64,000 bases of DNA. Source: Sulfuricurvum sp. GTDB taxonomy: Bacteria; Campylobacterota; Campylobacteria; Campylobacterales; Sulfurimonadaceae. The stretch spans positions 124,001 to 188,000 of the forward strand of contig NZ_JAUYFF010000019.1 of NCBI RefSeq assembly GCF_030691015.1. The letters run 5' to 3'. The notes under the pieces are model-generated. The model was given only the letters and a program-made list of their open reading frames with translations. It did no database searches and was not told where the DNA came from. Position numbers and translations under genes: made by a program. This document shows, piece by piece, positions 16,403 to 33,437 of the stretch; the stretch's first letter is position 1; each line of letters opens with the position of its first letter.

Positions 16403-16705
16403 ATGAAAACACTATTGCAAATTGATTTTCCCTATACCGGCCCTTTTGGAGCGGATATGGTGTCAGCCTTCAGTCCGCTAGCCGAATCGATAGCTCAAGA
16501 GAGCGGGCTGATTTGGAAGATGTGGACGGAGAACCCTACAACGAAGGAAGCAGGCGGTATCTATTTGTTTGTTGATCACGCTTCGGCAGAAGAGTATTTG
16601 AAAATGCACACGGCACGTTTGGAAAGTTTCGGGGTACAAGGGATCAGATCTAGAATTTTCGAGGTGAATACCTCTCTTTCTCGCATTACCAACGCACCTC
16701 TTTAG
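16403..16705 (+). CDS. YdhR-like putative monooxygenase
   Basis: This is a 100-residue small ferredoxin-fold protein. The pattern LLQIDFPYTGPFGADM...LAESIAQESGLIWKMWTENPTTKEAGGIYLF, then AEEYLKMHTARLESFGV, matches the YdhR/monooxygenase family, which are dimeric barrels. The real substrate of this family is not known. The coding end overlaps the convergent nasA gene by 20 bases. Confidence 0.8.
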   Translation: MKTLLQIDFPYTGPFGADMVSAFSPLAESIAQESGLIWKMWTENPTTKEAGGIYLFVDHASAEEYLKMHTARLESFGVQGIRSRIFEVNTSLSRITNAPL

Positions 16706-18722
16706 CGGGGGCTATCTGCACGCGTGCCGATTTTAGAGCGCTTTGAAAAGAGAGTGGATCGTTTTGTGTCGGTACGAGGGTGTTAATCGGAGCTTGCGGG
16801 TACCCAAACGGGGCAAAAAGGTGGCCGACCGCCAGCGTTCCGAAGCGGATAGGAAGGTGTATCGATCCCAACTCATTGGACAAGACGGCGATATCTCCCT
16901 CCCTCATTCCTCTCTCATTCGCTTCAGATTCATTGATCAAAAGATAGGGTTCTTCTTCATTTTTTAAAAGCTCAGGAACATGCCCTGTTCGTGTCATTGT
17001 ATGCCACTGTTGTTTCGTCCGTCCGGTGATGAGAACAAATTCGTCTTTGTTTAAATGCAAAGAGGAAGAGACGATCGGATGAAATTGTGCTTTATGTGAA
17101 GTCGTTGCAAACACTTCATCCGTATAAAGCCGTTCTCCTCCCCACTGATACGAGAGGCTCTCATACTCTTGTGTACTTTGATCGCATAAACGACTTTTTG
17201 TGAGCATTTGATACTCATGATAGACCTCTGAGGGCTCGGTAAAATCAAATCCCGAAAATCCAAGTGCTTTCGCAACATCACAAACGATGCTCATATCACT
17301 TTTTGCCCCCTCAGGGATGGGTTTAAAAGCTCTGACACGTTTGATAAAGCGCTCCGAATTGGTCATACTCCCCTCTTTTTCACCCCACGCAGCGCTCGGG
17401 AGAATGAGGTTCGCTAGAGCGGCAGTTTCGCTCAGTACACAATCCTGAACAACTAAAAAAAGATCGGGATGGTTGAGTGCACGAGTCGTTTTTTCAACAT
17501 CAGGGAGGGTCAAAAGCGGGTTCGTGCAGGCAACCCATAACAAACGAATCTCATTGCGCAAAATCTCTTCGACAGCATCGGTGATAGTGATCCCTACTTC
17601 TGAAGAGATCGTGTTCGAGGAGAGATTCCAATGGTGCTCGCATACTTCACGATCCTGAGGGTTACGGACATCACGGTACCCTGGGAGGCCGTTGGAGAGG
17701 TAGCCCACTTCCCGTCCTCCCATGGCATTAGGCTGACCCGTGAGAGAGAACGGAAGCCCTTTTTTGGCGTTGATCCGTCCTGTGGCGAGAAAGAGGTTGA
17801 TAAATCCGAGGTTGCGCATCACCCCATCCACGGCTTGGTTCAATCCCTGACACCATAGTCCTAGAATTTTTTTGTCCGATCCGAAAAGTTCCACAAGGGT
17901 TGAAGCATCTTTGAGGGAAAGCCCGCATAAGGCAATGGCATCGCTAAACGAGAGTTTAAGTGCTTCGGTGAGGGTTAGCTCAAATCCTTCGCTGCAGCGG
18001 TCGATAAAATCCAGATCACATGTTCCCCTTCGATACAGTTCTCCCAAGAGGGCATTGTAGAGCATTGTATCGCTTCCGCTACGAAGTCCGAGCCACAGAT
18101 CGGCTTTCTCGGCGGTTTCGGTACGGATCGGATCGATAACGATGATTTGGGTATCAGGGTGAGATTTTTTACGCGCTAAGATACGTCGATGGAGGATCGG
18201 GTGTGCCCATGCAGGATTGGAACCGCTGATGAGGATGACATCGGCATCGTCAATATCGGCGTAATTTCCTACGGCTCCGTCGCTTCCGAATGCCATCTTG
18301 TGGGCGACGACGGCACTTGCCATACACAATCGTGAGTTCGCATCGACGTTGTTGGTTCCCAAATATCCCTTGGTCAGTTTCGTAAAGAGATAGCTCTCTT
18401 CGGTGAGTAGCTGTCCTGAGAGGTAAAAATAGAGGGCTTCAGTGGGAAGAGATTTAATCTGATCGACTAAAACGCAGATTGCCTCCTCCCACGATATTTC
18501 GCGGAAGGGATCGGTTTTGCGGGATCGGTACAGCGGAGTGGCGAGGCGGTTGGCATCAAGCGCTTTTGCCATTTGGATCGGTTTGAAACACAAATCTCCG
18601 AGGGTAGAGGGGTTGGATTTATCACCCTTTACTCTGACGCCTTTATCACTGCATTCGACACTTAAGGCGCACCCCGTACCGCAAAACGGGCATCCTGTAT
18701 CCGTGCTGTTATTCGCTTTCAT
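16686..18722 (-). CDS. nasA: Assimilatory nitrate reductase catalytic subunit
   Basis: I choose ATG 18722 (678 residues) over a TTG 15 bases upstream. The protein is a molybdopterin oxidoreductase with an N-terminal [4Fe-4S] motif CPFCGTGC with a fourth Cys near residue 47, and LYFYLSGQL, SRLCMASAV and SGSNPAWAHPILHRR cofactor-binding motifs. The molybdopterin-binding C-terminal domain begins near VLITGRTKQQWHTMTRTG. The size and lack of a signal peptide fit cytoplasmic NasA/NarB enzymes reducing nitrate to nitrite with ferredoxin or flavodoxin. It overlaps nirA by 14 bases and is third in an operon with cobA and nirA. Confidence 0.92.
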   Translation of the reverse strand: MKANNSTDTGCPFCGTGCALSVECSDKGVRVKGDKSNPSTLGDLCFKPIQMAKALDANRLATPLYRSRKTDPFREISWEEAICVLVDQIKSLPTEALYFYLSGQLLTEESYLFTKLTKGYLGTNNVDANSRLCMASAVVAHKMAFGSDGAVGNYADIDDADVILISGSNPAWAHPILHRRILARKKSHPDTQIIVIDPIRTETAEKADLWLGLRSGSDTMLYNALLGELYRRGTCDLDFIDRCSEGFELTLTEALKLSFSDAIALCGLSLKDASTLVELFGSDKKILGLWCQGLNQAVDGVMRNLGFINLFLATGRINAKKGLPFSLTGQPNAMGGREVGYLSNGLPGYRDVRNPQDREVCEHHWNLSSNTISSEVGITITDAVEEILRNEIRLLWVACTNPLLTLPDVEKTTRALNHPDLFLVVQDCVLSETAALANLILPSAAWGEKEGSMTNSERFIKRVRAFKPIPEGAKSDMSIVCDVAKALGFSGFDFTEPSEVYHEYQMLTKSRLCDQSTQEYESLSYQWGGERLYTDEVFATTSHKAQFHPIVSSSLHLNKDEFVLITGRTKQQWHTMTRTGHVPELLKNEEEPYLLINESEANERGMREGDIAVLSNELGSIHLPIRFGTLAVGHLFAPFGYPQAPINTLVPTQNDPLSFQSALKSARVQIAPAKEVRW

Positions 18723-20619
18723 GGAGTACTTTCTCAATATCGTTTACAATTTCGGTAAAAACTTGATACCGTTGTATCGGGTTAGGGAGGAGCATCTTTT
18801 CAATGATTTCTTTATAGGGGAGATATCGTTTATCGAGCGTTTTAGCATCAAAGATAAACGGTTTTTTCCCTTCTAAAAAAGGATCTTCTACTTCATAGGC
18901 TTTAGACCCTGTAATCGATTGAACGAGGGATAAACCATAAGCATAGATTTCATCACACTCTTTGTGGCTTCCTCCGTGGGATTTGAGATTAAAATGGAGC
19001 ATGGCTTCGAGTGATTGAAGCGTCATAAAACGGTTCCATCGCATTAAAAAACCGATTGCATAGTTGCTGTAGCGGATTTGCAATCGGTGGATAAAATGTT
19101 CAAAACTCTCTTTAGCCATCCGTAGATCACGGTATTCGCGCATAAACTCGGCGACAAATTCACGAGCTTCTTCGAGTACGATTCCCTTCAGCAGAAGATG
19201 TCCCTCTCCCCCTTCGCCACTGAGCGTTCCTCCGATAAAAATATCAACCCCTAGTACTGTTTTACCGTTTCTAGGAACTTTGCATCCGACGAATCCCAAA
19301 TCTCCTGCACCATGTACTCCGCACCCTTTGATGCATGCAGACCAGTAGAGACGTACTTTGGCATCTTCAATAGGCACTATACGACTCAGATATTCACCCA
19401 TATCAATCGCATCAGGTTTTCCGGGAATGACCCCAAAAGGACAGTGCTCCGATCCTGCACATGCGATGAGGTTTGCCATATAGGGCGAGGGACGGTTCGG
19501 ATACTTGGCAAAGAGAGGAGACTTTAACGCCTTGGTCTCATTGCTGATTCCTGTGATGATGAGGTTTTGCTCGATCGTGAGACGGAGTGCTCCCCCTTGT
19601 GATTGTGCAATATGAGCGGCATGAAAGAGATCTGTCCCGCTAAAAACTCCCGAGGGGACAGCGGCATAGAGGGCAAAGGTTCCGTCATTTAGAGCGATTT
19701 TTCCGTAATGATCTCCCCCTTCTAAACGGGTAAGACTCTCACCTGCTTTAGGCATTACCAGACCTAAATGCGCCTCAATCGCATTTCTAAACTCACTCAT
19801 CCCGACCGCTTCGATCAAAAATTTCAGACGGTTTTTATTGCGGTTATCACGAAATCCGTATGTTTTAAAGAGAGTTGCTACCGCTTCAAAGACCGCTACC
19901 GCCTTAGATGGAGTGACGAACATATCAGCATCGTGTGCCAGAGAACCGACGCGTCCGCCCAGATAGAGGTTAAATCCGTATTCTCCCTCTTTTTGGGCAA
20001 GGGAGAGGGCAAAGTCCTGACCGAAAATGTTACATCGATTTGAGAATGAACCGTTGATTCCGATGTTAAATTTGCGAGGTAGTGTCGTAATCCAGTCAGG
20101 ATTTTTTAAAAAGATGGATTGAATCTGCTCCATAATCGTTTTAGCTGGGATAATATTATCCACTGCTAATCCATCGAGAGGGTCGAGGAGAATATTACGG
20201 AAATTATCGACTCCGGTTTGATAACTGGTGAGTCCGACACTCTCTAAAGCGCTCAGTGCTTCAGGAAGATCTTCAATCGATACATATCGCAGTTCAACCT
20301 GTTGACGGGTAGTGAGATCGATGTAGTCACGTCCGAAACGCTTCGCCACATCGGCCAATACCGATGCTTGGTGGAATGTGAGGGCACCTCCGGCGATCCG
20401 TACACGGATCATAAACTGCTCAGGCGTAGCAGGGCGGTCGAATACCCCGAAACTTTTGAGGACAAAATCTTTATCGTCATCACTGATCAAAGCATAACCG
20501 GTTTTAGAATAACCGATCAGCCGCTCCCATGCCTCAACGGCGTTAAAAGCGTCTTTGATCGATTCGGTTTTATGTCGCTTGGCACTGCGCTGTTCATTAG
20601 CTTGAGAGAGCGATGTCAT
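18709..20619 (-). CDS. nirA: Ferredoxin-nitrite reductase (siroheme/4Fe-4S)
   Basis: ATG 20619 is preferred because AAGGAGG lies 7 bases before it; a longer frame would only read into cobA. The 636-residue protein has two ferredoxin-like half-domains and the siroheme/4Fe-4S cysteines CAGSEHC and CIKGC. It reduces nitrite to ammonium using six ferredoxin electrons; sulfite reductase is the alternative, but nasA next to it points to nitrite. It is longer than usual (about 500-560): about 90 extra residues after the second siroheme half look helical (HFNLKSHGGSHKECDEIY, LPYKEIIEKMLLPNPIQRY). Confidence 0.9.
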   Translation of the reverse strand: MTSLSQANEQRSAKRHKTESIKDAFNAVEAWERLIGYSKTGYALISDDDKDFVLKSFGVFDRPATPEQFMIRVRIAGGALTFHQASVLADVAKRFGRDYIDLTTRQQVELRYVSIEDLPEALSALESVGLTSYQTGVDNFRNILLDPLDGLAVDNIIPAKTIMEQIQSIFLKNPDWITTLPRKFNIGINGSFSNRCNIFGQDFALSLAQKEGEYGFNLYLGGRVGSLAHDADMFVTPSKAVAVFEAVATLFKTYGFRDNRNKNRLKFLIEAVGMSEFRNAIEAHLGLVMPKAGESLTRLEGGDHYGKIALNDGTFALYAAVPSGVFSGTDLFHAAHIAQSQGGALRLTIEQNLIITGISNETKALKSPLFAKYPNRPSPYMANLIACAGSEHCPFGVIPGKPDAIDMGEYLSRIVPIEDAKVRLYWSACIKGCGVHGAGDLGFVGCKVPRNGKTVLGVDIFIGGTLSGEGGEGHLLLKGIVLEEAREFVAEFMREYRDLRMAKESFEHFIHRLQIRYSNYAIGFLMRWNRFMTLQSLEAMLHFNLKSHGGSHKECDEIYAYGLSLVQSITGSKAYEVEDPFLEGKKPFIFDAKTLDKRYLPYKEIIEKMLLPNPIQRYQVFTEIVNDIEKVLHESE

Positions 20620-21373
20620 GACATTCCTCCTTGGGTTCATAACGGTAGGTTGGAAGAACACTCGATAAATTGACGACATTCCCAAAGACTAAAATAGCCG
20701 GTTTCGGTGCTCCTTTGGCCGCATCGATAAGTTCACCGAGAGTGGTGATAATGGAGCTTTGGTTTGCGGTGGTGGCATTAGAGATAATAGCAACGGGCAA
20801 TGAAGCATCAATCCCCTGATCCAGTGCCTCTTTGAGTATTTGGCGGGTACGGCTCAGTCCCATGAGGACAACGGTGGTGTGATCTTCTACACCGAGCATC
20901 GGAATCCATGAAAGATTCACCCGATCCCCTGCGAGATGGGCAGACACCAGTGATACACCCGTACTGATTCCGCGTGCGGTCGGAGCAATTCCAGCGGAGA
21001 GCGGGCCTGAGAGTGCCGAAGAAATTCCGGGAATGACTTCGGTCTCAATGGCGTTTTGTGAAGCATAGATTGCCTCTTCCGTACCGCGACCGAAGATATA
21101 GGGATCACCGCATTTTAGGCGTCCTACCGTGAACCCCTGCAGCGCATATTCGGTAATCATTGTGTTGATCGTTTCTTGAGGAAAACTGTGTTTCCCTTTC
21201 TCTTTTCCGACAAACACTATTTTGGTTCGTGCAGGAATGAGTGCGATGATTTCATCGGTGAGAAGATGATCAATAAGGGCAATATCAAGTTTCTCAATGG
21301 TTTTTAGTGCTTTAAGGGTCAGCAGATCGGCATCACCTGGCCCGCAGCCGATTAAATATAATTTTCCGTTCAT
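20597..21373 (-). CDS. cobA: Uroporphyrinogen-III C-methyltransferase (SUMT)
   Basis: The 258-residue protein has the SUMT signature set: LIGCGPGDADLLTLKAL at the N-terminus, VGKEKGKHSFPQETIN, GRLKCGDPYIFGRGTEE and VIPGISSALSGPLSAGIAPTARG. It makes precorrin-2 from uroporphyrinogen III, the first step to siroheme. It is the first gene of the cobA-nirA-nasA operon (23-base overlap with nirA), so siroheme supply is coupled to nitrite reductase. The oxidation and chelation steps are encoded by the divergent gene at 21485. Confidence 0.93.
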   Translation of the reverse strand: MNGKLYLIGCGPGDADLLTLKALKTIEKLDIALIDHLLTDEIIALIPARTKIVFVGKEKGKHSFPQETINTMITEYALQGFTVGRLKCGDPYIFGRGTEEAIYASQNAIETEVIPGISSALSGPLSAGIAPTARGISTGVSLVSAHLAGDRVNLSWIPMLGVEDHTTVVLMGLSRTRQILKEALDQGIDASLPVAIISNATTANQSSIITTLGELIDAAKGAPKPAILVFGNVVNLSSVLPTYRYEPKEECHDIALSS

Positions 21374-21380
21374 AGGATAT

Positions 21381-21421
21381 TCCTTATTAGGACTTTTTTG
21401 TCTTTAAAAATAATAGTGTAA
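21381..21421 (-). promoter_or_regulatory. cobA operon -10 and leader dyad
   Basis: Read on the minus strand this holds TTTTACAC followed by TATTAT (-10, 21415-21410), then GAC-AAAAAA-GTC, then CTAATAAGGA, which includes the ribosome binding site. The same order and spacing occur before nrtA (24938-24982) and the NarK-type gene (33317-33362). Confidence 0.6.
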
Positions 21422-21446: not shown

Positions 21447-21463
21447 TGTTTATTTTTTAATCA
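21447..21463. promoter_or_regulatory. Nitrate-regulon dyad, cobA / precorrin-2 dehydrogenase
   Basis: On the minus strand: TGATTA-AAAAA-TAAACA, a slightly imperfect form of the TGATTA-N5-TAATCA dyad at 25005-25021 and 33383-33399. Its centre is 42.5 bp from the centre of the cobA -10, the same as at the other two sites. It lies 22 bases before the divergent gene's ATG, so one site could serve both. Confidence 0.55.
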
Positions 21464-21484
21464 ATTCATTGCTAAGGATTTTAA

Positions 21485-22052: not shown

Positions 22053-22853
22053 TTATTCATCTTCCTTGGCAAATTTTGAGTAGAGAAATTCGATAATCGC
22101 TCCACGACATCTTAGATACTCTGGATTATGTTGGAGTTCCAAACGATTTCGCGGACGAGGAAGATTGACCTCCAGTATCTCTCCAATGGTCGCCTCAGGG
22201 CCGTTGGTCATCATAATGACCCGATCGCTTAGCAGTACCGCTTCATCCACATCATGGGTGATGATGACGACGGTATTACCCGTTTGCATCTGTATCCGCA
22301 TTAAATGATCTTGTAAATTGGCACGGGTGAGCGAATCGAGTGCTCCGAACGGCTCATCCATGAGGAGCACTTTAGGTTCGATGGAGAGGGCACGTGCAAT
22401 GCCCACACGCTGTTTCATACCTCCGCTGATCTCACCGGGGTATTTGTCTTTTGCATGATCGAGATTCACCATTTGGATGTATTTCATCACATGATCGCGG
22501 ATCTCACTGCTGCTTAACTCTTCACCCAATACTTTACGTACCGCCATTTCAATATTTTGATAGACCGATAGCCACGGAAGGAGGGAGTGATTTTGAAAGA
22601 CTACCGCCCGCTCCGGTCCGGGAGCGAGAATGTGCTTGTCTTCGAGCAAAATAGTTCCGTTTGAAATCGTATCGAGTCCAGCAATGAGGTTGAGGATCGT
22701 CGATTTGCCACATCCCGAGTGACCGATGATGGAGACGATCTCATTCTCTTTGATATCCAGTTGGACATCTCGTAGGGCGACATACTCTTTCCCCCCGCCG
22801 AGAGGGAAAATCTTATCGACATGATCGATCTTTAAAAAAGGTTTTGCACTCAT
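22053..22853 (-). CDS. nrtD: Nitrate ABC transporter, ATP-binding protein
   Basis: This is a 266-residue ABC ATPase with Walker A GHSGCGKST, signature ISGGMKQRVGIARAL, Walker B VLLMDEPFGALDSLTR and the HDVDEAVLLSDRV switch. This sequence style is shared by NrtC/NrtD, SsuB and TauB ATPases. It overlaps the permease gene by 4 bases (ATGA). Context (NrtA-type binding protein, nasA, nirA) points to nitrate/nitrite. No NrtA-like C-terminal fusion is present, so it is NrtD-like. Confidence 0.88.
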   Translation of the reverse strand: MSAKPFLKIDHVDKIFPLGGGKEYVALRDVQLDIKENEIVSIIGHSGCGKSTILNLIAGLDTISNGTILLEDKHILAPGPERAVVFQNHSLLPWLSVYQNIEMAVRKVLGEELSSSEIRDHVMKYIQMVNLDHAKDKYPGEISGGMKQRVGIARALSIEPKVLLMDEPFGALDSLTRANLQDHLMRIQMQTGNTVVIITHDVDEAVLLSDRVIMMTNGPEATIGEILEVNLPRPRNRLELQHNPEYLRCRGAIIEFLYSKFAKEDE

Positions 22854-23632
22854 TTGAGTCCTCGCTTACGGTAATCAAAGAAATCGGCGATCAGCCCCAT
22901 AGCCGCATCGAGGATATACCCGATAACTCCGATGAGAATAATCCCGATAATAATATGGGAGTAGTTGAGATTGTTGTACTCATCCCAAATCCAAAATCCG
23001 ATCCCTACCCCTCCGGTGAGCATCTCCGCCGCGACGATAACGAGCCATGCGATACCGAGGGAAAGACGCATCCCCGTAAAGATAAAGGGAACGGCAACGG
23101 GGAGGATAATCTGAAATACCCGCTCAAACGGACTCAGTTGAAGTACCCGTGCGACGTTGAGATAATCTTCACTCACACTGCGTACCCCCAGCGCCGTATT
23201 GATAATAATCGGCCAGATCGAAGTGACGAAGATGACGAAAATCGCCGTCGTATTGACCTCTTTAAAGACAAACAGTGCCAACGGTAGCCACGCGAGAGGT
23301 GAAACGGGCTTAAGTATTTGTATATACGGATTGAACGCCGTATACGCATTTTTAGACATCCCGATCAGCAGTCCCACAGGAACACCTACCGCTATGGCGA
23401 GGGCAAATCCTCCGAATACGCGAGCCAGTGAATTGCCCAGTTGCAGTGCGATTCCCTGATCTCCCGCACCGTTGTTGTAAAACGGATCAGAGAGGACGAC
23501 GAGGAGTTCGCTCCATACTTCACTAGGTGGGGGGAACCCCGGTATCTGAGCGGAAATAGCCGACCAAATTGCGATCACTATACCAAAGAGCAGTAGTGGC
23601 AAAAGGACGGCATTACTGTATTTTGAAACCAT
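22850..23632 (-). CDS. nrtB: Nitrate ABC transporter, permease
   Basis: The 260-residue membrane protein has about six helices and the BPD_transp_1 EAA-type loop near LNVARVLQLSPFERVFQIILPVAVPFIFTGMRLSLGIAW. This fits NrtB/SsuC/TauC permeases. AAGGAGAAC precedes the ATG. It is second in the nrtABD operon, 15 bases after nrtA. Confidence 0.9.
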   Translation of the reverse strand: MVSKYSNAVLLPLLLFGIVIAIWSAISAQIPGFPPPSEVWSELLVVLSDPFYNNGAGDQGIALQLGNSLARVFGGFALAIAVGVPVGLLIGMSKNAYTAFNPYIQILKPVSPLAWLPLALFVFKEVNTTAIFVIFVTSIWPIIINTALGVRSVSEDYLNVARVLQLSPFERVFQIILPVAVPFIFTGMRLSLGIAWLVIVAAEMLTGGVGIGFWIWDEYNNLNYSHIIIGIILIGVIGYILDAAMGLIADFFDYRKRGLK

Positions 23633-23647
23633 AATGTTCTCCTTGTA

Positions 23648-24931
23648 TTATTTCGCGGATACTTTCCAATTATTCACTTTTAAGAGTGCTTCTTTGGTGA
23701 TTTTCGGCGATTTGATCGGAGCGTTATAGATATAATCTACGGATTTGTTCGGATCGAATGTCACACCGTCGATGAATTTTTTCTCTACTTTCCATGGGGT
23801 TGCAGGAAGGGCATAATTAACCTCTTTTGCCGCTTTCGCAAACAGATCAGGGCGATAGACGCTCTCAACGGTTTTCTTCATGTCGATCGCTCTATCGAGT
23901 TGCCCCCAACGGATCATTTGGGTCACTTGCCACAACCCGTGACTGTAGTAGGGATAAAGTGCCTGTTTTTTTCCAAAAACGTTGAAATTCGGCATCGGGG
24001 TATTGACTCCGTTGGTGAACATATAGGTTCCGGTCATAGAGTTGTCGATAACATCTTTCGGAGCATTGACATACGATTTGCTTGAGAGAATAGCAGAGGC
24101 TTCTTTACGGTTTTCCCATGAAGCATCGAGCCACATTCCCGCTTCAATGACCGCTTTGATCATCGCTTTGGTCGTTTCAGGATTTTTATCGGCAAACGCC
24201 TTTTGTACCCCTAATACTTTTTCCGGTCCATCTTGCCAGAGCTGATATCCGGTGACGACGGTTTTACCGATATTTCCCATAACGGCGCGTTGGTTCCACG
24301 GTTCACCTACACAGTAGCCGTCGATGTTTCCGGCGGTCATATTGGCGACCATTTGCGGAGGCGGAACGACTTTGAGCGCGACATCACTGTCGGGGTTAAC
24401 TCCACCGGCTGCCATCCAGTAGCGGACATGGTAGTTATGGGTTCCCGTAGGAAAGGTCATCCCGAACTCAGGAACCCCCATTGTTTTAGACGCGATCACT
24501 TTTTTGAGAGCCACGGCCGAGCCTTTTTTCGTTGCGGTCGGATCAGCGGCCATCATGGCGTCATACATCTTATTCGATACCGTAATCGCATCTCCGTTTT
24601 GACCGAGTGCCATGAGGGCCACCATATCTTTTTTGGTACTTCCCACCCCGAGCGTCGTAGCGATCGGCATTGCGGCGAGCATGTGCGATGCATCGAGTTC
24701 ACCGACGGTCATTTTGTCACGGACGTTTGCCCATGAAGCCTCTTTGCTCAGCTCGACATTTAAGCCGTGTTTGGCAAAGAACCCTTTTTCTTTAGCGATA
24801 ACCAGTGCCGCACAGTCGGTCAAGGGTATGAATCCGATTTTGAGATCTTTTTTCTCCGGTGCCGCCATTACTATGGACGCAGCAAGGGATAGTACGAATG
24901 CACCTTTTCCTAAAATATTCAAGTGTTTCAT
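23648..24931 (-). CDS. nrtA: Nitrate ABC transporter, periplasmic binding protein
   Basis: The 427-residue protein starts with a signal peptide (about 1-23, ending VMAAPEKK). The opening LKIGFIPLTDCAALVIAKEKGFFAKHGL and later motifs (GNIDGYCVGEPWNQRAV) are diagnostic of the NrtA/CmpA binding-protein family, which captures nitrate/nitrite or bicarbonate. The surrounding nitrate reductase genes favour nitrate. It leads the nrtABD operon and carries the shared nitrate promoter and leader motifs just upstream. Confidence 0.92.
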   Translation of the reverse strand: MKHLNILGKGAFVLSLAASIVMAAPEKKDLKIGFIPLTDCAALVIAKEKGFFAKHGLNVELSKEASWANVRDKMTVGELDASHMLAAMPIATTLGVGSTKKDMVALMALGQNGDAITVSNKMYDAMMAADPTATKKGSAVALKKVIASKTMGVPEFGMTFPTGTHNYHVRYWMAAGGVNPDSDVALKVVPPPQMVANMTAGNIDGYCVGEPWNQRAVMGNIGKTVVTGYQLWQDGPEKVLGVQKAFADKNPETTKAMIKAVIEAGMWLDASWENRKEASAILSSKSYVNAPKDVIDNSMTGTYMFTNGVNTPMPNFNVFGKKQALYPYYSHGLWQVTQMIRWGQLDRAIDMKKTVESVYRPDLFAKAAKEVNYALPATPWKVEKKFIDGVTFDPNKSVDYIYNAPIKSPKITKEALLKVNNWKVSAK

Positions 24932-24937
24932 GGGAAC

Positions 24938-24982
24938 TCCTTATTAAGACTATTTTGTCTGAAATAATTGTAGAGTAAAAAG
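24938..24982 (-). promoter_or_regulatory. nrtA -10 and leader dyad
   Basis: On the minus strand: TTTTTACTC, TACAAT (-10, 24972-24967), then AGAC-AAAATA-GTCT, then TAATAAGGAG. It is almost identical to the region before the NarK-type gene over 23 bases, with one mismatch between the -10 and upstream part. Confidence 0.6.
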
Positions 24983-25003: not shown

Positions 25004-25022
25004 GTGATTAAAAAATAATCAC
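25004..25022. promoter_or_regulatory. Nitrate-regulon dyad before nrtA
   Basis: This is a perfect 19-bp palindrome with GTGATTA and TAATCAC arms around AAAAA. Its centre is 43.5 bp upstream of the centre of the -10. It matches the sites at 21447 and 33383 in sequence and distance. The position suits an activator. Confidence 0.6.
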
Positions 25023-25112: not shown

Positions 25113-27005
25113 TCAATACTCGACAAAGGTTAGTGAGAGGAGATCGTTTTTATAGTTGTCTTGCGTTTTATATTCTCGGTAGCCCTCAGAGAGGGCTATT
25201 CCTACAAGGTATTTTTTATCTTCAAATAGGGTAAAACAGTGGGTAGACTCTTCTGCGTTAAAGCGTAATATCTCATTCTCAAGAGGGAGTTGCTGTAATA
25301 ATTTCATCTCGGGATGAGTTGTTGCTATAACAACTCCTTTACGGTCAATAAAGCAAGAGAAACCTTTTTTTGAACTTGAAAAACTATCTTCGAGCATAGC
25401 ATTAAATTGAGGGTATGCATCAAAAACGATTCCGATTCCCCCTAATGTTATCCCATTAGAACGGATAGTTGAACTGTAAATGTAGGTAGGGGAATCGTTA
25501 TAAAACAGGTTGTTTTCAAACGGACTGACAAAATAATTTTGGCTATTTTTATTGGAGAGTGTTTTTGAGATATAGTCTCCGGAAACCTTTTTCCCGATGA
25601 TGGTTTGATCGGATGAAGCGGCGATAATCATCGAATCGGTGTCGTAAATAAAGAGATTGGTATAGACCGTATAGAGACTGTTTATGTAGTGCAATACATC
25701 GCTGATACGTTTAATATCGGGGGTTTCTTGAGAAAGTTCTTCTTCAAATGTCGGAGTCATAGCCCACCATCGGCAGTCGTTGGCTCGTTCATAGAGATTT
25801 CGATCCATGATATTTATGGCTAATTTTGCGGATGCCTGAACATCAAACACTAGCCCTTCCATAATCGTATTTTCGAGATTCGTAACAGACTCTTTTATGG
25901 TTTCTAAAATCGATGTACTTATGTTGCGTAGATTATCCAAAACAGGCGTTAAAACATAGACTCGCTCTTTTGCCGCAATAAGCTCCCCATTAATAATGAC
26001 ATCACTGAGATCTTCGATAACATCATCCGCTTTCATAATAATAGAGCGAATATTATCGTTCAGGGTACATTTAATCTTAGCGGAAGCCGTGGAGGGAAGA
26101 TTTCGGGAATGATTGATTCCATTTTTATAGGCGATACTGTTCCATTTTGCCCCGTGATACCCCTCATACCCTTTTGTTTTTGCTGAAACATAAAGAGATC
26201 CGTTTCGGTAAACATAAGGAGCCTCGGTATCTATGCGGAGAAAATCATTAAGGGATGTGAGTTGATGATCGGATGAGGCTATTACGTCTTTACCGTTTGT
26301 AAAGAGGATGTGCTCGTTGGGGTTCAATAAAGATGAGAAAATATGGGACATTTCATCATCAAAACGAAAACACAAGATGAGAACCCCCAGCGTTTGTTGA
26401 TTTTCTACAATTCTTTGGGCAAATAAAAGCGTTTTGGGCTGGGAAATAAAAAGATCGGTCTGCGCATATCGTTCAATATAGCCATCATAGTGGAGTGCTT
26501 CGGTGATAAGGGGATCATCTGAATGGGTTAATGCATTGTTTTCGTTGATGTTGAGGCGAATATTTCCTTTGTCATCCGTAATGATTATTTCATTATAAAC
26601 ACTGTACTTCAGTGTATATTCGATGAGACGCTGACGAAGCTGTTCAGGATTTTTGTTCTCTTTAAGATAGGTGATGATCGATTCATCTGTTGCTAAAAAT
26701 CCGACATCCGCTGTACGTTCAAAAAGATTCCGGATTAATATATCGATACTTATTTGGGCTTTTGAACGTAATTCTTCGGTATGTTTTTTTAGATTTTCAT
26801 CGATGAGCAGAGGGATAAGTTCCTCTTGGAGGCTACTGAATGTTTCAATCGTTTTTTCAGTAAAGGAGAATAGGTTTGCCGCTTGTTCAATTGCGCATAT
26901 TTTTCCGGTGAGGATGATTTTTTTTAAGAATCTATTTTGTCCGTCAAATAGTTGCACATTTCTTTGAATAAACGGAAAAAGTTGTGAAATACTGGACGAT
27001 TGCAT
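25113..27005 (-). CDS. Soluble tandem-Cache-like sensor without output domain
   Basis: The 630-residue protein has no signal peptide and no membrane segment. It contains two related units. The first starts with IDILIRNLFERTADVGFLAT (residues 87-106) and the second with INIMDRNLYERANDCRWWAM (397-416). Each is followed by a PAS-like Cache fold with strands such as EIIITDDKGNIRLNI and LFIYDTDSMIIAAS. The end (LSEGYREYKTQDNYKNDLLSL) resembles the segment that in related proteins, from memory, leads into CheW; here the protein stops. No kinase, GGDEF, MCP or HTH domain is present. It lies between nrtABD and an Rrf2 regulator, so nitrate or redox sensing is the contextual guess. Confidence 0.7.
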   Translation of the reverse strand: MQSSSISQLFPFIQRNVQLFDGQNRFLKKIILTGKICAIEQAANLFSFTEKTIETFSSLQEELIPLLIDENLKKHTEELRSKAQISIDILIRNLFERTADVGFLATDESIITYLKENKNPEQLRQRLIEYTLKYSVYNEIIITDDKGNIRLNINENNALTHSDDPLITEALHYDGYIERYAQTDLFISQPKTLLFAQRIVENQQTLGVLILCFRFDDEMSHIFSSLLNPNEHILFTNGKDVIASSDHQLTSLNDFLRIDTEAPYVYRNGSLYVSAKTKGYEGYHGAKWNSIAYKNGINHSRNLPSTASAKIKCTLNDNIRSIIMKADDVIEDLSDVIINGELIAAKERVYVLTPVLDNLRNISTSILETIKESVTNLENTIMEGLVFDVQASAKLAINIMDRNLYERANDCRWWAMTPTFEEELSQETPDIKRISDVLHYINSLYTVYTNLFIYDTDSMIIAASSDQTIIGKKVSGDYISKTLSNKNSQNYFVSPFENNLFYNDSPTYIYSSTIRSNGITLGGIGIVFDAYPQFNAMLEDSFSSSKKGFSCFIDRKGVVIATTHPEMKLLQQLPLENEILRFNAEESTHCFTLFEDKKYLVGIALSEGYREYKTQDNYKNDLLSLTFVEY

Positions 27006-27146: not shown

Positions 27147-27572
27147 TTAAATTCGTTTGATTCTGCGTTGAAGAATATCGTCGGTGATTTCACTCAGACA
27201 CATCGCGTCATACATCTCTAGCATCTCTTGACGCCATTTATCCCATTGTGAATGAAGTGCGCACGGTTTTTCACTTTCACAGTTTCCGATACCGAGAACG
27301 CACGCATCAAAGAAGGTTGATCCATCTACGGCATCAATGATAGAGAGTAGGGTGATCTCAGAAGCATCACGAGAGAGAGTAACTCCCCCTGCAGCTCCTC
27401 GTTGAGAGATTATGATTCCGGCATGAACCAATTTTTGAAGTGATTTGGCCATAAAATGGAAAGGAAGATCAAGTGCTTCGCTGATCTCTTGTATCCGATG
27501 AAATTCCCCTACGGGCTTGGTTGAGAGCCACACGGCAGCACGGATAGTATCTTGGCAAGCAGAAGAGAGCAT
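27147..27572 (-). CDS. Rrf2-family Fe-S-type transcriptional regulator
   Basis: The 141-residue protein has the Rrf2 winged-helix layout: an N-terminal helix (LSSACQDTIRAAVWLSTKP), recognition region (ISEALDLPFHFMAKSLQKLVHAGIIISQRGAAGGVTL) and a C-terminal cysteine loop C-x6-C-x5-C (CVLGIGNCESEKPC) of the type that binds a [2Fe-2S] or [4Fe-4S] cluster in IscR/NsrR. It is the only DNA-binding regulator I see inside the nitrate locus. Its own upstream region (27591-27602) shares the 12-mer ATAATAGTGTAA with the cobA promoter (21410-21421). Nitric oxide, redox or Fe-S status could be the signal. Confidence 0.88.
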   Translation of the reverse strand: MLSSACQDTIRAAVWLSTKPVGEFHRIQEISEALDLPFHFMAKSLQKLVHAGIIISQRGAAGGVTLSRDASEITLLSIIDAVDGSTFFDACVLGIGNCESEKPCALHSQWDKWRQEMLEMYDAMCLSEITDDILQRRIKRI

Positions 27573-27730
27573 CAGTAAAACCTTTTGAATATAATAGTGT
27601 AATTGTAGCTTAGATTATTGACTCAAGGGGGCATCTTCATGAGAATTGTGGATCACAAGTATCCATAAATTGTCGATATAAATGGACATTATGGTATATT
27701 TTAAGAAGCAGGATAGAGGAAGTGGGTTGT

Positions 27731-30389: not shown

Positions 30390-32030
30390 CTATTTTGACA
30401 CGTAGAGGACAAACGTCCAAACTTCAAGAATCAACATGATAAAAAACCCGATTTTATAAAACGTAGCGGGTGAGCGTTCGATAAGCGGTGTTTCTTTGCA
30501 AAAAAACGGTTTAACTTTTTCGGGTGCCTTCAGTTCATAAAATAATTCAGAATAGTGAGCGTAGCGCTGATTTGTTGAGATTGCAATGGCACGCATTATG
30601 ACAGAATCAAGCCACATCGGAATATTTTTATTTAGCTGCGCGGGGCGTTTGGGGGATTTAAAGATCGGTGTTTGAAACGGTTCAATTTCTCCGTAGGGAA
30701 ATTTTCCGGTAAGTGCCCAATATAAGGTGACTCCAATAGAGAAAATTTCGGTAGATTCGTTAATGACGCTTCCGTTGAAACGCTCAGGGGCGAGATAGGT
30801 AGGGGTGCCGGCACGGGAATTAGTAGAGAAAATCTGAACAATGGAGCCGAAATCGACCATCTTGAAATCGACTCCCGCTTCCCCCTCTTTTTTATAAACG
30901 AGGATATTCTCAGGTTTTATATCGCCGTGAACAAGACCCAAATGGAGCAGATGCGCTTCGGCACGATGGAGGAATTTTCCAAGAGAAATGGCATTATCGA
31001 CGGAGAGAGGACGATTTTTAAGATACTCTTGGAGATTTACCCCCTCCACCAGCTCCATCAGATAATAGCGCATACTTCGCTCATTGGGTACCCACGCGTG
31101 CCCAAACGCTTTGTGGGTGATTTGTTTGGCGTACCATGCTTCATGGACAAATGCATCGAGAGTCTCTTCATCATCCGCGTAGAGAGGAAATTTCATCACA
31201 CAGACGTCATCCCCTTTGGCTACTTTCCAAATACGCGCATGCGCCATCATAGGGCTGATAAGCGTGTATCCGTCGATGATTTCACCAACGTTGAGGGTCT
31301 CAGGTATCGGGAGGGGGATATTTTTAAGTGCGTGAAGCGGATCAAGAGAAATAATCCGGAAGATTTGGAGGCTCATATCATCACGATTTTCCGGCGCACA
31401 ATTTTGGGAGGCGTGATGGATTAGTGTGGAAGCACCTAATCCTTTATGAATCAAATCCGCAAAGGTTCTTTCATCTATAAGGTTATAAACACCGTCACTG
31501 CACATAATAAGCGTGTCACCCACACCAATAGGTGTTGAGAGTATACTCAACTCGATATTTTCACTCAAGCCGCATGCGGAGGTTAAGACATGGGACATGT
31601 ATTCGTCATCCATGGTATGATCACGTGTAAGACGGCAAAGTTCTCCCTTTGCTGTGAGAAGATAGATACGCGAATCACCGAGATGAAGAGTGTAGAGGTT
31701 TTCTCCCTCAATCACAGCAAGGCATAGTGTCGTAAGCAGTTCGATTTTCCCGTATTGGGTCATCGACTCTTTAAATAACAGAGAATTGATATGACGGGTA
31801 AAAACCTCCATGGTTTTAGGAATATCCCATGCCTTCGGACGATTTTTGAACTGATCAATAAAGAATTTGACACATTGGCGTGCGGCGGTACCGCCTCTTG
31901 CAGCACTACCGACTCCATCGCACAGTACACTGACTAACAACGCATTGTCAATGATAGTGAAGGCACACGAATCATCCCCTGTTGAGGAGTCTTTAGGGAG
32001 GATGAATTCGGAAGATTGAAGTTCTAACAT
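30390..32030 (-). CDS. PP2C phosphatase-Ser/Thr kinase fusion
   Basis: The 546-residue protein has an N-terminal PP2C phosphatase (about 1-235) with metal-site motifs DDSCAF, DGVGSAARGG, MCSDGVYN and DDMSL. A Hanks-type kinase follows (about 255-500): the lysine in VCVMKF, catalytic VHGDIKPENIL, the metal-binding DFGS and LAPERF. A single C-terminal membrane helix ends it (FFIMLILEVWTFVLYV). All main residues of both enzymes are present. It begins 2 bases after the NarK-type gene. A similar fusion next to a nitrate transporter is known in Pseudomonas (PA1782/PA1783, recalled), so it probably adjusts nitrate uptake or assimilation. Confidence 0.9.
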   Translation of the reverse strand: MLELQSSEFILPKDSSTGDDSCAFTIIDNALLVSVLCDGVGSAARGGTAARQCVKFFIDQFKNRPKAWDIPKTMEVFTRHINSLLFKESMTQYGKIELLTTLCLAVIEGENLYTLHLGDSRIYLLTAKGELCRLTRDHTMDDEYMSHVLTSACGLSENIELSILSTPIGVGDTLIMCSDGVYNLIDERTFADLIHKGLGASTLIHHASQNCAPENRDDMSLQIFRIISLDPLHALKNIPLPIPETLNVGEIIDGYTLISPMMAHARIWKVAKGDDVCVMKFPLYADDEETLDAFVHEAWYAKQITHKAFGHAWVPNERSMRYYLMELVEGVNLQEYLKNRPLSVDNAISLGKFLHRAEAHLLHLGLVHGDIKPENILVYKKEGEAGVDFKMVDFGSIVQIFSTNSRAGTPTYLAPERFNGSVINESTEIFSIGVTLYWALTGKFPYGEIEPFQTPIFKSPKRPAQLNKNIPMWLDSVIMRAIAISTNQRYAHYSELFYELKAPEKVKPFFCKETPLIERSPATFYKIGFFIMLILEVWTFVLYVSK

Positions 32031-32032
32031 TA

Positions 32033-33310
32033 TTATATTCTAGCTCCGGAAACAGCGCCCCATGTGGTACGCCAGCGTGTTTTTACCAAACTTATCCCTA
32101 CTAAAGCAACCATTACCATCGCCGCAAAGATCAAAAATCCGGCACTATAGCCATCGTACGCTCCTTGAGACCAGCCGAAGGTTTTGATAAGTACCGTACC
32201 GCCCAGACCGCCGGCCGCACCGATAAGCCCCGTCATAATTCCGATATCTTTACCGAAACGTTGCGGTACGAGTTGAAATACCGAGCCGTTCGCCATTCCG
32301 AGGTTGGCCATAATGAGAAACATGACAAGAATCGCTCCCCAAAACGGCAGAGCAACAAACGCGCTGATAAAGGAGAGTACGATAATCATACCGAAAAAAA
32401 TGTAAAGGGATTTGATTCCCCCCATTTTATCGGCAAAGGCACCTCCTACGGGGCGAAGCATCGCACCGGCAAAGATACAAAGCGCTCCGAAATAGCCGGC
32501 AATTACTTTTACGTTACTCTCATCCATTACATTGATTCCAAACGAGGACATATCGGCTTGATACGTATTCATCAAATAGACTTTCATATAGTTGGCAAAT
32601 CCGATAAATCCTCCGAAACTGACGGCATAAAAGAGGTTAAACCACCATGTGTCACGATCACGCATCAGTTTGAGATAGTCGCGCAATTTTTTCGGATTAG
32701 GTTTATAAACGGATGTCGGAGCATCTTTTGCCATCATCATATAGGCGACTAAGACGATAGTCGATAACACCGCACCGACGAGAAACACCGATGCCCATCC
32801 CCATAATTCGGCAATTTTAGGGGCAAACAAAAAGTCGATAACGACACCGATATTTCCAGCACCCGCGATCCCAAGGACAGTTCCTTGTAAACGCGGCGGA
32901 TACCATTGACCCGCTTGCGGCAGTGCGACGGCAAACGATGCTCCGGCAAATCCAAGTCCCAAGGCAACCCATAGCAACTGACTATACGTAATTGTATCTG
33001 CGCTCATATATGCATAGAATAACGTTGCGATAACGATGAGCTGAGAAATGAGAGCCGTCTTTTTTGCGCCGAATTTATCGACAAATATTCCCAAAACAAT
33101 TCGAAGCAAAGCTCCGGCTAAAACCGGAATCGCCAGCAGGGTGGCCTGCTGATCATCACTCATCGTGAAGCCTCGCAAAGAGAGAGACTCTCCGATCTCA
33201 GTGGCGAGTGGCCCCAGCATCGTCCACATCATAAAACTAAAGTCAAAATACAAGAAAGCGGCAAACAGTGTCGGCCAGTGTCCCTCTTTTTTTAAATCTC
33301 CGAACTTCAT
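32033..33310 (-). CDS. NarK/NasA-type nitrate/nitrite MFS transporter
   Basis: This is a 425-residue, 12-helix MFS protein. Nitrate/nitrite porter signatures are visible: GGSFAVALPQAGQWYP-like GASFAVALPQAGQWYPPRLQG, GIAGAGNIGVVIDFL and MANLGMANGSVFQLVPQRFGKDIGIMTGLIGAAGGLGG, which carry the two nitrate-signature glycine-rich helices. With the ABC importer, the cell has two nitrate uptake routes. It is in an operon with the PP2C-kinase gene. The promoter has the shared dyad and leader. Confidence 0.92.
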   Translation of the reverse strand: MKFGDLKKEGHWPTLFAAFLYFDFSFMMWTMLGPLATEIGESLSLRGFTMSDDQQATLLAIPVLAGALLRIVLGIFVDKFGAKKTALISQLIVIATLFYAYMSADTITYSQLLWVALGLGFAGASFAVALPQAGQWYPPRLQGTVLGIAGAGNIGVVIDFLFAPKIAELWGWASVFLVGAVLSTIVLVAYMMMAKDAPTSVYKPNPKKLRDYLKLMRDRDTWWFNLFYAVSFGGFIGFANYMKVYLMNTYQADMSSFGINVMDESNVKVIAGYFGALCIFAGAMLRPVGGAFADKMGGIKSLYIFFGMIIVLSFISAFVALPFWGAILVMFLIMANLGMANGSVFQLVPQRFGKDIGIMTGLIGAAGGLGGTVLIKTFGWSQGAYDGYSAGFLIFAAMVMVALVGISLVKTRWRTTWGAVSGARI

Positions 33311-33316
33311 AGGTTC

Positions 33317-33362
33317 TCCTAATTAGGATTTTTTTATCTGAAATAATTGTAGGGTAAAAAAG
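33317..33362 (-). promoter_or_regulatory. NarK-type gene -10 and leader dyad
   Basis: On the minus strand: TTTTTTACCC, TACAAT (-10, 33351-33346), GAT-AAAAAA-ATC, then CCTAATTAGGAG. The inner dyad keeps its symmetry although both arms changed from GAC/GTC (before cobA and nrtA) to GAT/ATC. TCCTAATTAGGA is itself a perfect 12-bp palindrome overlapping the ribosome binding site. Confidence 0.6.
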
Positions 33363-33382: not shown

Positions 33383-33399
33383 TGATTAAATAATAATCA
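33383..33399. promoter_or_regulatory. Nitrate-regulon dyad before the NarK-type gene
   Basis: TGATTA-AATAA-TAATCA is a perfect dyad centred 42.5 bp from the centre of the -10. It is the third copy of the motif in this locus. Confidence 0.6.
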
Positions 33400-33437
33400 A
33401 TAACACCAATGGGAGGAAAAGGGGTGAGAGAAGCTCT

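Follow-up and report, generated by a model that had tools for sequence, protein, structure and literature searches.

The window analyzed here is a stretch of 64,000 nucleotides from a Sulfuricurvum genome (contig NZ_JAUYFF010000019.1, positions 124,001 to 188,000; G000:C11:124001-188000 in this analysis). It carries rrf2, a gene for an Rrf2-family regulator, among genes for the assimilation of nitrate and nitrite (nas genes). The genome is 2.33 megabases (Mb), and its close relatives are Sulfuricurvum. The promoters of the narK-kinase, nrtABC, and cobA-nirA-nasC operons share two elements, Box A and Box B (Table 1). Rrf2 is probably a genus-specific iron-sulfur (Fe-S) repressor of the nas genes that acts at Box B, which is the best reading of evidence that is comparative throughout.

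The Rrf2 protein

The protein of 141 amino acids (aa) matches the Pfam Rrf2 family (PF02082; E 1.5e-25, 90.4 bits against a gathering cut-off of 30) and passes the NCBIfam rrf2_super model (83.4 against 73.3). Its predicted structure (mean predicted local distance difference test score 76.9) has the winged helix-turn-helix (wHTH) fold of the family, and the top named Foldseek matches are RsrR, CymR, NsrR, and IscR. The loop C91-VLGIGN-C98-ESEKP-C104 has the spacing C-x6-C-x5-C. All 26 distinct orthologous sequences retain these three cysteines and His107, as does a 21-row alignment. Three loop cysteines and a fourth ligand are the mark of an Fe-S Rrf2 protein, and the cluster itself is a prediction. 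A preliminary description of this DNA had proposed an Fe-S Rrf2 regulator with a cysteine spacing slightly different from that of IscR and NsrR, and both points are supported. In Escherichia coli, the spacing is C-x5-C-x5-C for IscR and C-x4-C-x5-C for NsrR, and the histidine at Cys+3, which that description did not mention, is a further predicted ligand.

The same description had suggested a phylogeny against NsrR, IscR, RirA, and CymR. In a tree of 55 rows, the 26 nas-linked proteins form a single clade (support 100/98). E. coli IscR lies outside this clade, with two other Rrf2 paralogs of the window genome (C17; 100/99), and E. coli NsrR lies outside it with Paracoccus hmp, Rhodococcus, and Sinorhizobium rows (100/98). 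The nas clade is loosely sister to Bacteroidota-type proteins at only 92/75, where long branches meet, and no donor is claimed. Six NCBIfam equivalogs match the protein, all far under their cut-offs. Scores were 57.1 against 207.55 for IscR (TIGR02010), 45.2 against 182 for NsrR (NF008240), 45.2 against 193 for RirA, and 34.9 against 195 for CymR. Membership in any of these four groups was rejected on the equivalog scores and, for E. coli IscR and NsrR, also on the tree; the separation from RirA and CymR is by score. Membership in the nas-linked orthologous group, which was defined in this analysis, is borne out by monophyly, linkage to nas genes, and the presence of Box B in the same genome.

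Shared architecture of the nas promoters

The cobA, nrtA, and narK promoters have a colinear layout composed of Box A (TTGATTA-N5-TAATCA), approximately 30 base pairs (bp), a -10 element (TACAAT or TATTAT), Box B (AGAY-W6-RTCY), and the ribosome-binding site. Transcription starts were placed from the -10 element. Because this hexamer lies at -12 to -7 of the Box B start, Box B would span approximately +1 to +14 and Box A would be centred at approximately -52. Among 54 promoters counted, the hexamer is TACAAT in 20, TATTAT in 9, and TATAAT in 7. No clear -35 element was seen by eye in promoters of these three types.

Conservation was counted in 63 distinct promoters of the genus (25 cobA, 22 nrtA, and 16 narK), three of which are from the window. 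Relative to AGAYW6RTCT, Box B has 0 mismatches in 36, 1 in 19, 2 in 6, and 3 or 4 in 2; at most one mismatch is found in 55 of 63, against 1.4% of shuffled promoters. Box A has 0 mismatches in 10, 1 in 25, 2 in 24, and 3 in 4, and 59 of 63 promoters have at most two, against 1.6% of shuffled promoters. Where both boxes are readable (Box A at no more than 3 mismatches, Box B at no more than 2), they are 59-62 bp apart, start to start, in 60 of 61 promoters. A Box B spacer of 6 fits 50 of the 63 promoters; spacers of 2-5 and 7-11 fit 0-1. The arms stay constant while the spacer varies among A6, T6, and mixtures, as would be expected of a dyad protein site.

In the 2.33-Mb genome, the extended Box B pattern is matched perfectly at three sites and no others, namely the cobA, nrtA, and narK promoters. 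A fourth site has one mismatch and overlaps a GGDEF gene at its 3' end, and extra regulon members in this genome were rejected on that ground. Exact palindromic 14-mers occur six times in the genome: one at nrtA, one intergenic at C2:21062, and four overlapping open reading frames (ORFs). Across 41 genomes of the genus, the extended pattern has 45 sites at no more than one mismatch, with the genes behind the sites unchecked, against 0 for the reversed control. In 16 nas loci of other genera, the Box B pattern gave two intergenic matches, both with 2 mismatches; one is approximately 98 bp upstream of nirA (L141) and the other has no gene behind it (L132).

Linkage and co-occurrence with nas genes

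An Rrf2 ortholog (E<=1e-25) is found in 26 of the 41 genus genomes and in 0 of 110 family genomes outside the genus. In a sample of 347 phylum genomes, other matches at E<=1e-18 are 30-38% identical. Within the fetched flanks, nas genes are present at 18 of 21 named rrf2 loci (L006-L026), the remaining three being L007 (a contig of 3.8 kilobases, kb), L019, and L020. The rrf2 start lies 9-10 bp past the stop of the kinase gene in six distinct loci (L008, L009, L010, L011, L013, and L157), and rrf2 precedes nrtA or cobA in others. In one Sulfuricurvum subclade (L018:9141-9998, L019, L021, and L024), rrf2 overlaps the stop (TAATG) of a gene for a 285-aa membrane protein. This protein has no confident Pfam family, and a similar protein in the window genome (G000, C8) lies beside moaC with Box A between them.

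Co-occurrence was tallied by hand, with the NirA match of G118 (7.9e-61, 31% identity) counted as negative. Rrf2 is present in 25 of 29 genomes with NirA versus 1 of 12 without (n=41; Fisher p 4.6e-6), and at a completeness of at least 92% in 20 of 20 versus 1 of 8. The extended Box B, at no more than one mismatch, is found in 23 of 26 genomes with Rrf2 versus 2 of 15 without (p 2.7e-6). One of these two sites precedes narK in a draft of 83% completeness. The other, in G094, is on a contig of 5.4 kb, none of whose listed ORFs was recognised as a nas gene.

Proposed mechanism

A homodimer of Rrf2 would bind the 14-bp palindrome Box B at the three promoters. Bound at +1 to +14, it would block initiation at promoters that look activator-dependent, and loss or modification of its predicted Cys3-His cluster would release it. 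Box A would be read by a separate general nitrogen activator that also serves glnA. Expression of the nas genes would then require both a shortage of nitrogen, sensed through Box A, and the Rrf2 signal, which frees Box B. This model draws on the conservation, spacing, and nas specificity of Box B, its co-occurrence with Rrf2, the invariant ligands, and the separation of the protein from E. coli IscR and NsrR. Repression, in particular, is suggested by the position and palindromy of Box B and by what is known of the family.

Several observations weigh against repression by Rrf2 at Box B. Both boxes were read from the promoters and then counted, so that the counts measure conservation and are not an independent test. 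Because the association lies within a single genus, the p values are inflated by common descent. Five drafts, 57-91% complete, yielded no Rrf2 and yet have nas promoters that can be read, with a good Box B in G092 and G132, a fair one in G114 (2 mismatches), and weak ones in G102 (3 mismatches) and G128 (2 and 4). The gene may be missing from any of these drafts; the three that keep Box B (G092, G132, and G114) may alternatively contradict the model. Conversely, G070, G086, and G104 have Rrf2 and lack the extended Box B at one mismatch, G110 has Rrf2 and lacks NirA, and the left arm of the cobA Box B is degenerate (ATAY or GTAC) in 6 genomes with Rrf2. The bare Box B 14-mer is not rare (6 places versus 4 in the control). 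The extended pattern at no more than 3 mismatches is no commoner than its reversed control (8 versus 10 sites), and therefore only the near-perfect class is informative. Neither a good Box A nor a good Box B was found in the 200 bp upstream of rrf2 in 8 loci. Among 12 related Rrf2 loci, described below, only about half have a neighbour of the nitric oxide (NO) type, and 6 lack the palindrome found at the rest.

Related Rrf2 genes and the signal

Relatives with the motif C-x6-C-x5-C-x2-H lie beside NO-type genes in several genomes. In the window genome, an Rrf2 paralog adjoins COX1/VWA/NorQ and NnrS genes, and a like cluster is on an S. kujiense plasmid. Other neighbours are qNor in G010, NnrS in G091, hmp in Hymenobacter, and cytochrome c/COX1 (NorC/NorB-like) pairs in G089 and G053. 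No clear NO-type neighbour was found at the related genes of G077, G427, and G038, and a putative NnrS neighbour in G003 was not confirmed by Pfam. NO linkage extends to Rrf2 proteins without this motif, those of Deinococcus and Paracoccus being beside hmp.

The palindrome CTAC-N6-GTAG has the same 4-6-4 layout as Box B. The 12 Campylobacterota loci with related Rrf2 genes contain 13 exact copies, spread over 6 loci, against a mean of 0.54 and a maximum of 3 in first-order shuffles. Only a spacer of 6 stands out (13); other spacers give 0-3. The palindromes are often paired 45-49 bp apart when one-mismatch partners are counted. The recognition-helix residues are F/Y-H/P-F-M/L-A/S-K-S-L-Q in the nas group versus Y-K-Y-L-T-K-L-M-T in the nor-linked paralog of the window genome, a difference that fits the differing half-site letters of the predicted operators. 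As an observation in its own right, the loci with CTAC-N6-GTAG beside a related Rrf2 gene (L192, L195, L198, L185, L181, and L182), several of them NO-linked, present a candidate NO-response operator of Campylobacterota. A Bacteroidota-like Rrf2 gene is also found on an Acinetobacter plasmid (L187), approximately 3 kb from tet(X3), and an IS91-like transposase separates the two.

Among the possible signals for Rrf2, NO or nitrite is favoured, though the assignment is tentative and has somewhat less than an even chance. A possible but less favoured alternative keeps the same protein and operator and makes Fe-S or iron status the signal, as in IscR. The nas enzymes use Fe-S clusters and siroheme, which speaks for such a signal; the nor-type, NnrS, or hmp genes beside several relatives with the same ligand motif speak against it. 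On a more speculative level, it is possible, though less likely than not, that the nas promoter is a two-key device unlike known nas circuits. A general regulator would act at Box A (-52), and a recently recruited Fe-S Rrf2 repressor would act at Box B (+1), taking NO or nitrite that escapes from nitrate reduction as evidence of nitrate. The repressor would have come from the wider, partly NO-linked Rrf2 subfamily by a change of half-site letters, with dimer geometry and ligands kept.

Other readings of Box A and Box B

It is unlikely that a different, unlinked regulator binds Box B and that Rrf2 controls something else. The link between Rrf2 and Box B consists of linkage, co-occurrence, and geometry, and the three drafts that retain Box B without a found Rrf2 (G092, G132, and G114) would suit such a regulator. 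Against it, rrf2 is inside or beside nas operons in many relatives, and related Rrf2 genes adjoin palindromes of Box B geometry; no systematic search for other regulators in these clusters was made.

All three nas promoters of the window hold a strongly palindromic Box A, whose half-site TTGAYT resembles the IscR type-1 half-site. That Rrf2 binds Box A as the nas operator, with Box B serving something else, is nonetheless very improbable, given where else Box A is found. At no more than one mismatch in the window genome, it is upstream of the three nas operons, glnA, and a dCache-CheW gene, and in the P-II/nifU divergent and moaC/membrane-protein regions. The remaining matches are intragenic or adjoin genes without an obvious connection to nitrogen; one, close to the end of a contig (C6:265), is unplaced. 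At 2 mismatches there are 146 matches versus 48 for the reversed control. The glnA test covered 30 of 56 matched genomes in 12 genera (L212-L241). Box A precedes glnA in 28 of the 30 (0-3 mismatches of 12; 13.5% in shuffled upstream regions), and all 28 sites are 82-91 bp from the start. Of 16 nas loci from other genera, 5 likewise have an intergenic Box A at no more than one mismatch. At 11 Box A sites of other genera (12 readings), the place of Box B holds nothing better than 2 mismatches, a level that shuffled promoters reach in 16% of cases.

Binding of Box A by Rrf2 was rejected since Box A is present at glnA and, near nas genes, in genera without an Rrf2 ortholog. Because Box A precedes glnA and occurs without this Rrf2, the pattern suggests the site of a general nitrogen regulator. 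Box A, seen at glnA, nas, P-II/nifU, and the moaC region (also L199, L201, and L067), looks like a widespread nitrogen-control operator of the family. The dCache-CheW protein (L201:3769-6348), which has Box A upstream, shares N-terminal sequence by eye with the 630-aa protein of the window.

A role of Box B as RNA, in a 5'-terminal hairpin or leader element, is just as improbable. In favour of it, Box B begins close to the presumed +1 and is closely followed by the ribosome-binding site. By inspection, however, its stem has only 4 bp with a 6-nucleotide A/U loop, narK sites such as GACAAAAAAATC (L006, L008, L009, and L011) would have a C-A mismatch in the stem, and the spacer switches between A6 and T6 without a change in the arms.

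The 12-mer and the rrf2 promoter

The preliminary description had suggested that a 12-mer, ATAATAGTGTAA, may be the element through which the regulator controls both its own gene and siroheme/nitrite reductase. The 12-mer is exact at both promoters and oriented alike relative to rrf2 and cobA, and its cobA copy is conserved in many cobA orthologs. The repeat is statistically weak because the word was picked after the fact and many 12-mers repeat in the window. Though found in 0 of 100 shuffles, it is one of 1400 repeated strand-words (approximately 700 distinct 12-mers), against 720-924 strand-words in 5 first-order Markov shuffles. In the 3323 intergenic bases of the window, 15 distinct 12-mers repeat, 10 of which are Box A-like or belong to the narK/nrtA promoters. 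The whole genome has 3 exact copies, the third inside an ORF, versus 1 for the reversed control.

The upstream neighbour of rrf2 is divergent in 5 of 8 upstream regions, and therefore rrf2 needs its own promoter there, and perhaps not in L007, L014, and L156. The 12-mer is kept in 2 of the 8 regions and in 2 of these 5. TACAAT or CACAAT (TACAATT/CACAATT) precedes rrf2 in the window, L006, L012, and L026, which are 4 of the 5 divergent regions, and the 12-mer sits just downstream of it in the window and L006. A GGDEF-type gene separates the kinase gene from rrf2 in the window, L006, and L026. In a side observation, narK promoters of another genus (L135:7962 and L137:12507) read TATAATTACACTATTA and TATAATTACACCATTA from the -10 on and resemble the window rrf2 promoter TACAATTACACTATTAT, possibly by chance.

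That the 12-mer is an operator is barely credible: it holds the -10 at cobA and follows another -10 at rrf2, is absent from 6 of 8 rrf2 upstream regions and from narK and nrtA, which share the rest of the architecture, and is not palindromic. It is probably just promoter sequence. The earlier caution that it could simply be a shared -10 comes close to this conclusion. Control of the siroheme/nitrite reductase operon survives by way of the cobA Box B rather than the 12-mer. Direct autoregulation is not supported, since the best matches in the 8 upstream regions have 3-4 mismatches to Box B and 3-5 to Box A; autoregulation may occur in loci with rrf2 immediately behind the narK-kinase genes.

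Other genes of the cluster

The best NCBIfam match of the nirA-type protein is ferredoxin-nitrite reductase, under its cut-off. No output domain was found in the 630-aa protein between rrf2 and nrtA, and relatives of it (38% identical) are upstream of narK in L008 and L009. The nitrate reductase near nirA is 33-34% identical to the window nasC product in L123, L146, L148, L150, L151, and L155, suggesting gene replacement of nitrate reductase in several Sulfuricurvum genomes.

Table 1. Features of the rrf2-nas region, in coordinates of the window.
Feature	Coordinates	Strand	Remarks
rrf2, Rrf2-family regulator of nas cluster	27147-27572	-	141 aa; starts MLSSACQD
Predicted cluster ligands C91-x6-C98-x5-C104-x2-H107	27252-27302	-	Invariant in orthologs
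Box B of cobA, AGACAAAAAAGTCC	21390-21403	-	
Box B of nrtA, AGACAAAATAGTCT	24947-24960	-	4-bp arms perfectly complementary
Box B of narK, AGATAAAAAAATCC	33326-33339	-	
-10 of nrtA, TACAAT	24967-24972	-	-12 to -7 relative to Box B start
-10 of narK, TACAAT	33346-33351	-	
Box A of cobA	21447-21464	-	Intergenic region shared with divergent sirC
Box A of nrtA	25005-25022	-	
Box A of narK	33383-33400	-	
12-mer ATAATAGTGTAA 5' of rrf2	27591-27602	+	Exact; kept only in window and L006 of 8 upstream regions; judged non-operator
12-mer ATAATAGTGTAA at cobA	21410-21421	+	Includes -10 TATTAT at 21410-21415, read on minus strand
narK, major facilitator superfamily (MFS) transporter	32033-33310	-	PF07690 MFS_1; named from place and sequence; predicted target
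PP2C-type phosphatase and protein-kinase domains	30390-32030	-	Pkinase, PP2C_2; next gene after narK
630-aa protein	25113-27005	-	Weak Cache match PF23846, 27.9 bits against cut-off 27
nrtA-like nitrate-binding protein	23648-24931	-	NMT1_2; predicted target with nrtB and nrtC
nrtB (BPD_transp_1) and nrtC (ntrCD), ATP-binding cassette (ABC) transporter	22053-23632	-	nrtB PF00528; nrtC TIGR01184 over cut-off
cobA, uroporphyrinogen-III C-methyltransferase	20597-21373	-	Predicted target
nirA-type nitrite reductase	18709-20685	-	NIR_SIR domains; start probably internal
Molybdopterin oxidoreductase, nasC-like	16686-18737	-	NCBIfam matches under cut-offs; assimilatory nitrate reductase by place and similarity

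Comparison with known systems

Among the matches listed in the open-access literature, no description of this Rrf2 group or of Box A was found. The analysis provides a testable operator and regulon for the group. It also offers a natural comparison, in which the operator changes at fixed geometry (CTAC-N6-GTAG versus AGAY-N6-RTCT) within one predicted Fe-S sensor subfamily. A by-product is Box A as a putative nitrogen operator widespread in the family, with sites at glnA, at nas genes, and in the P-II/nifU region.

The statements from the literature given here rest on excerpts of the cited papers. NO-sensitive Rrf2 control of assimilatory nitrite reductase is already known from Bacillus subtilis NsrR (PMC8139620, PMC4432287), which represses nasDEF (PMC8139620), and an nsrR ortholog is in the nas cluster of R. 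capsulatus E1F1 (PMC1274295). The new part seems to be the Rrf2 group, its operator, and the promoter architecture. NsrR of E. coli, B. subtilis, and S. coelicolor is like the window protein in its Rrf2 fold and Fe-S ligand loop. E. coli NsrR belongs to another clade and has C-x4-C-x5-C-x2-K in place of C-x6-C-x5-C-x2-H. The S. coelicolor NsrR (ScNsrR) site is 23 bp with two 11-bp inverted repeats (PMC4432287), whereas the operator predicted here is a 14-bp 4-6-4 element. In the ScNsrR-DNA structure, bases are contacted at +4, +5, and -6 (PMC9338935), and the Box B arms, 4-7 bp from the dyad, lie where these contacts fall. Another difference from NsrR is that no hmp or nor gene was seen beside rrf2 in the window.

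E. coli IscR shares with the window protein the wHTH fold and the predicted Cys3-His ligands (C91, C98, C104, and H107 here). The histidine at Cys+3 is the counterpart of IscR His107, a residue that NsrR does not conserve (PMC4432287). The window protein differs from IscR in clade, in a first spacing of x6 rather than x5, and in its linkage to nas rather than isc genes. With IscR-like predicted ligands and NsrR-like surroundings in some relatives, it is, as judged from sequence, a member of neither group.

RsrR and CymR, its top Foldseek neighbours, are 21-24% identical to it over the fold match. RsrR, CymR, and RirA belong to the Rrf2 family as it does, with the RirA and CymR equivalog scores falling short as given above. 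Bacteroidota-type relatives on plasmids, one of them beside hmp, have C-x6-C-x5-C-x2-H in common with it. The Campylobacterota relatives have the same ligand motif, and 6 of their 12 loci carry palindromes with the 4-6-4 layout, whose half-site is CTAC rather than the AGAY found here; several of them are NO-linked, whereas the window Rrf2 has nas neighbours instead.
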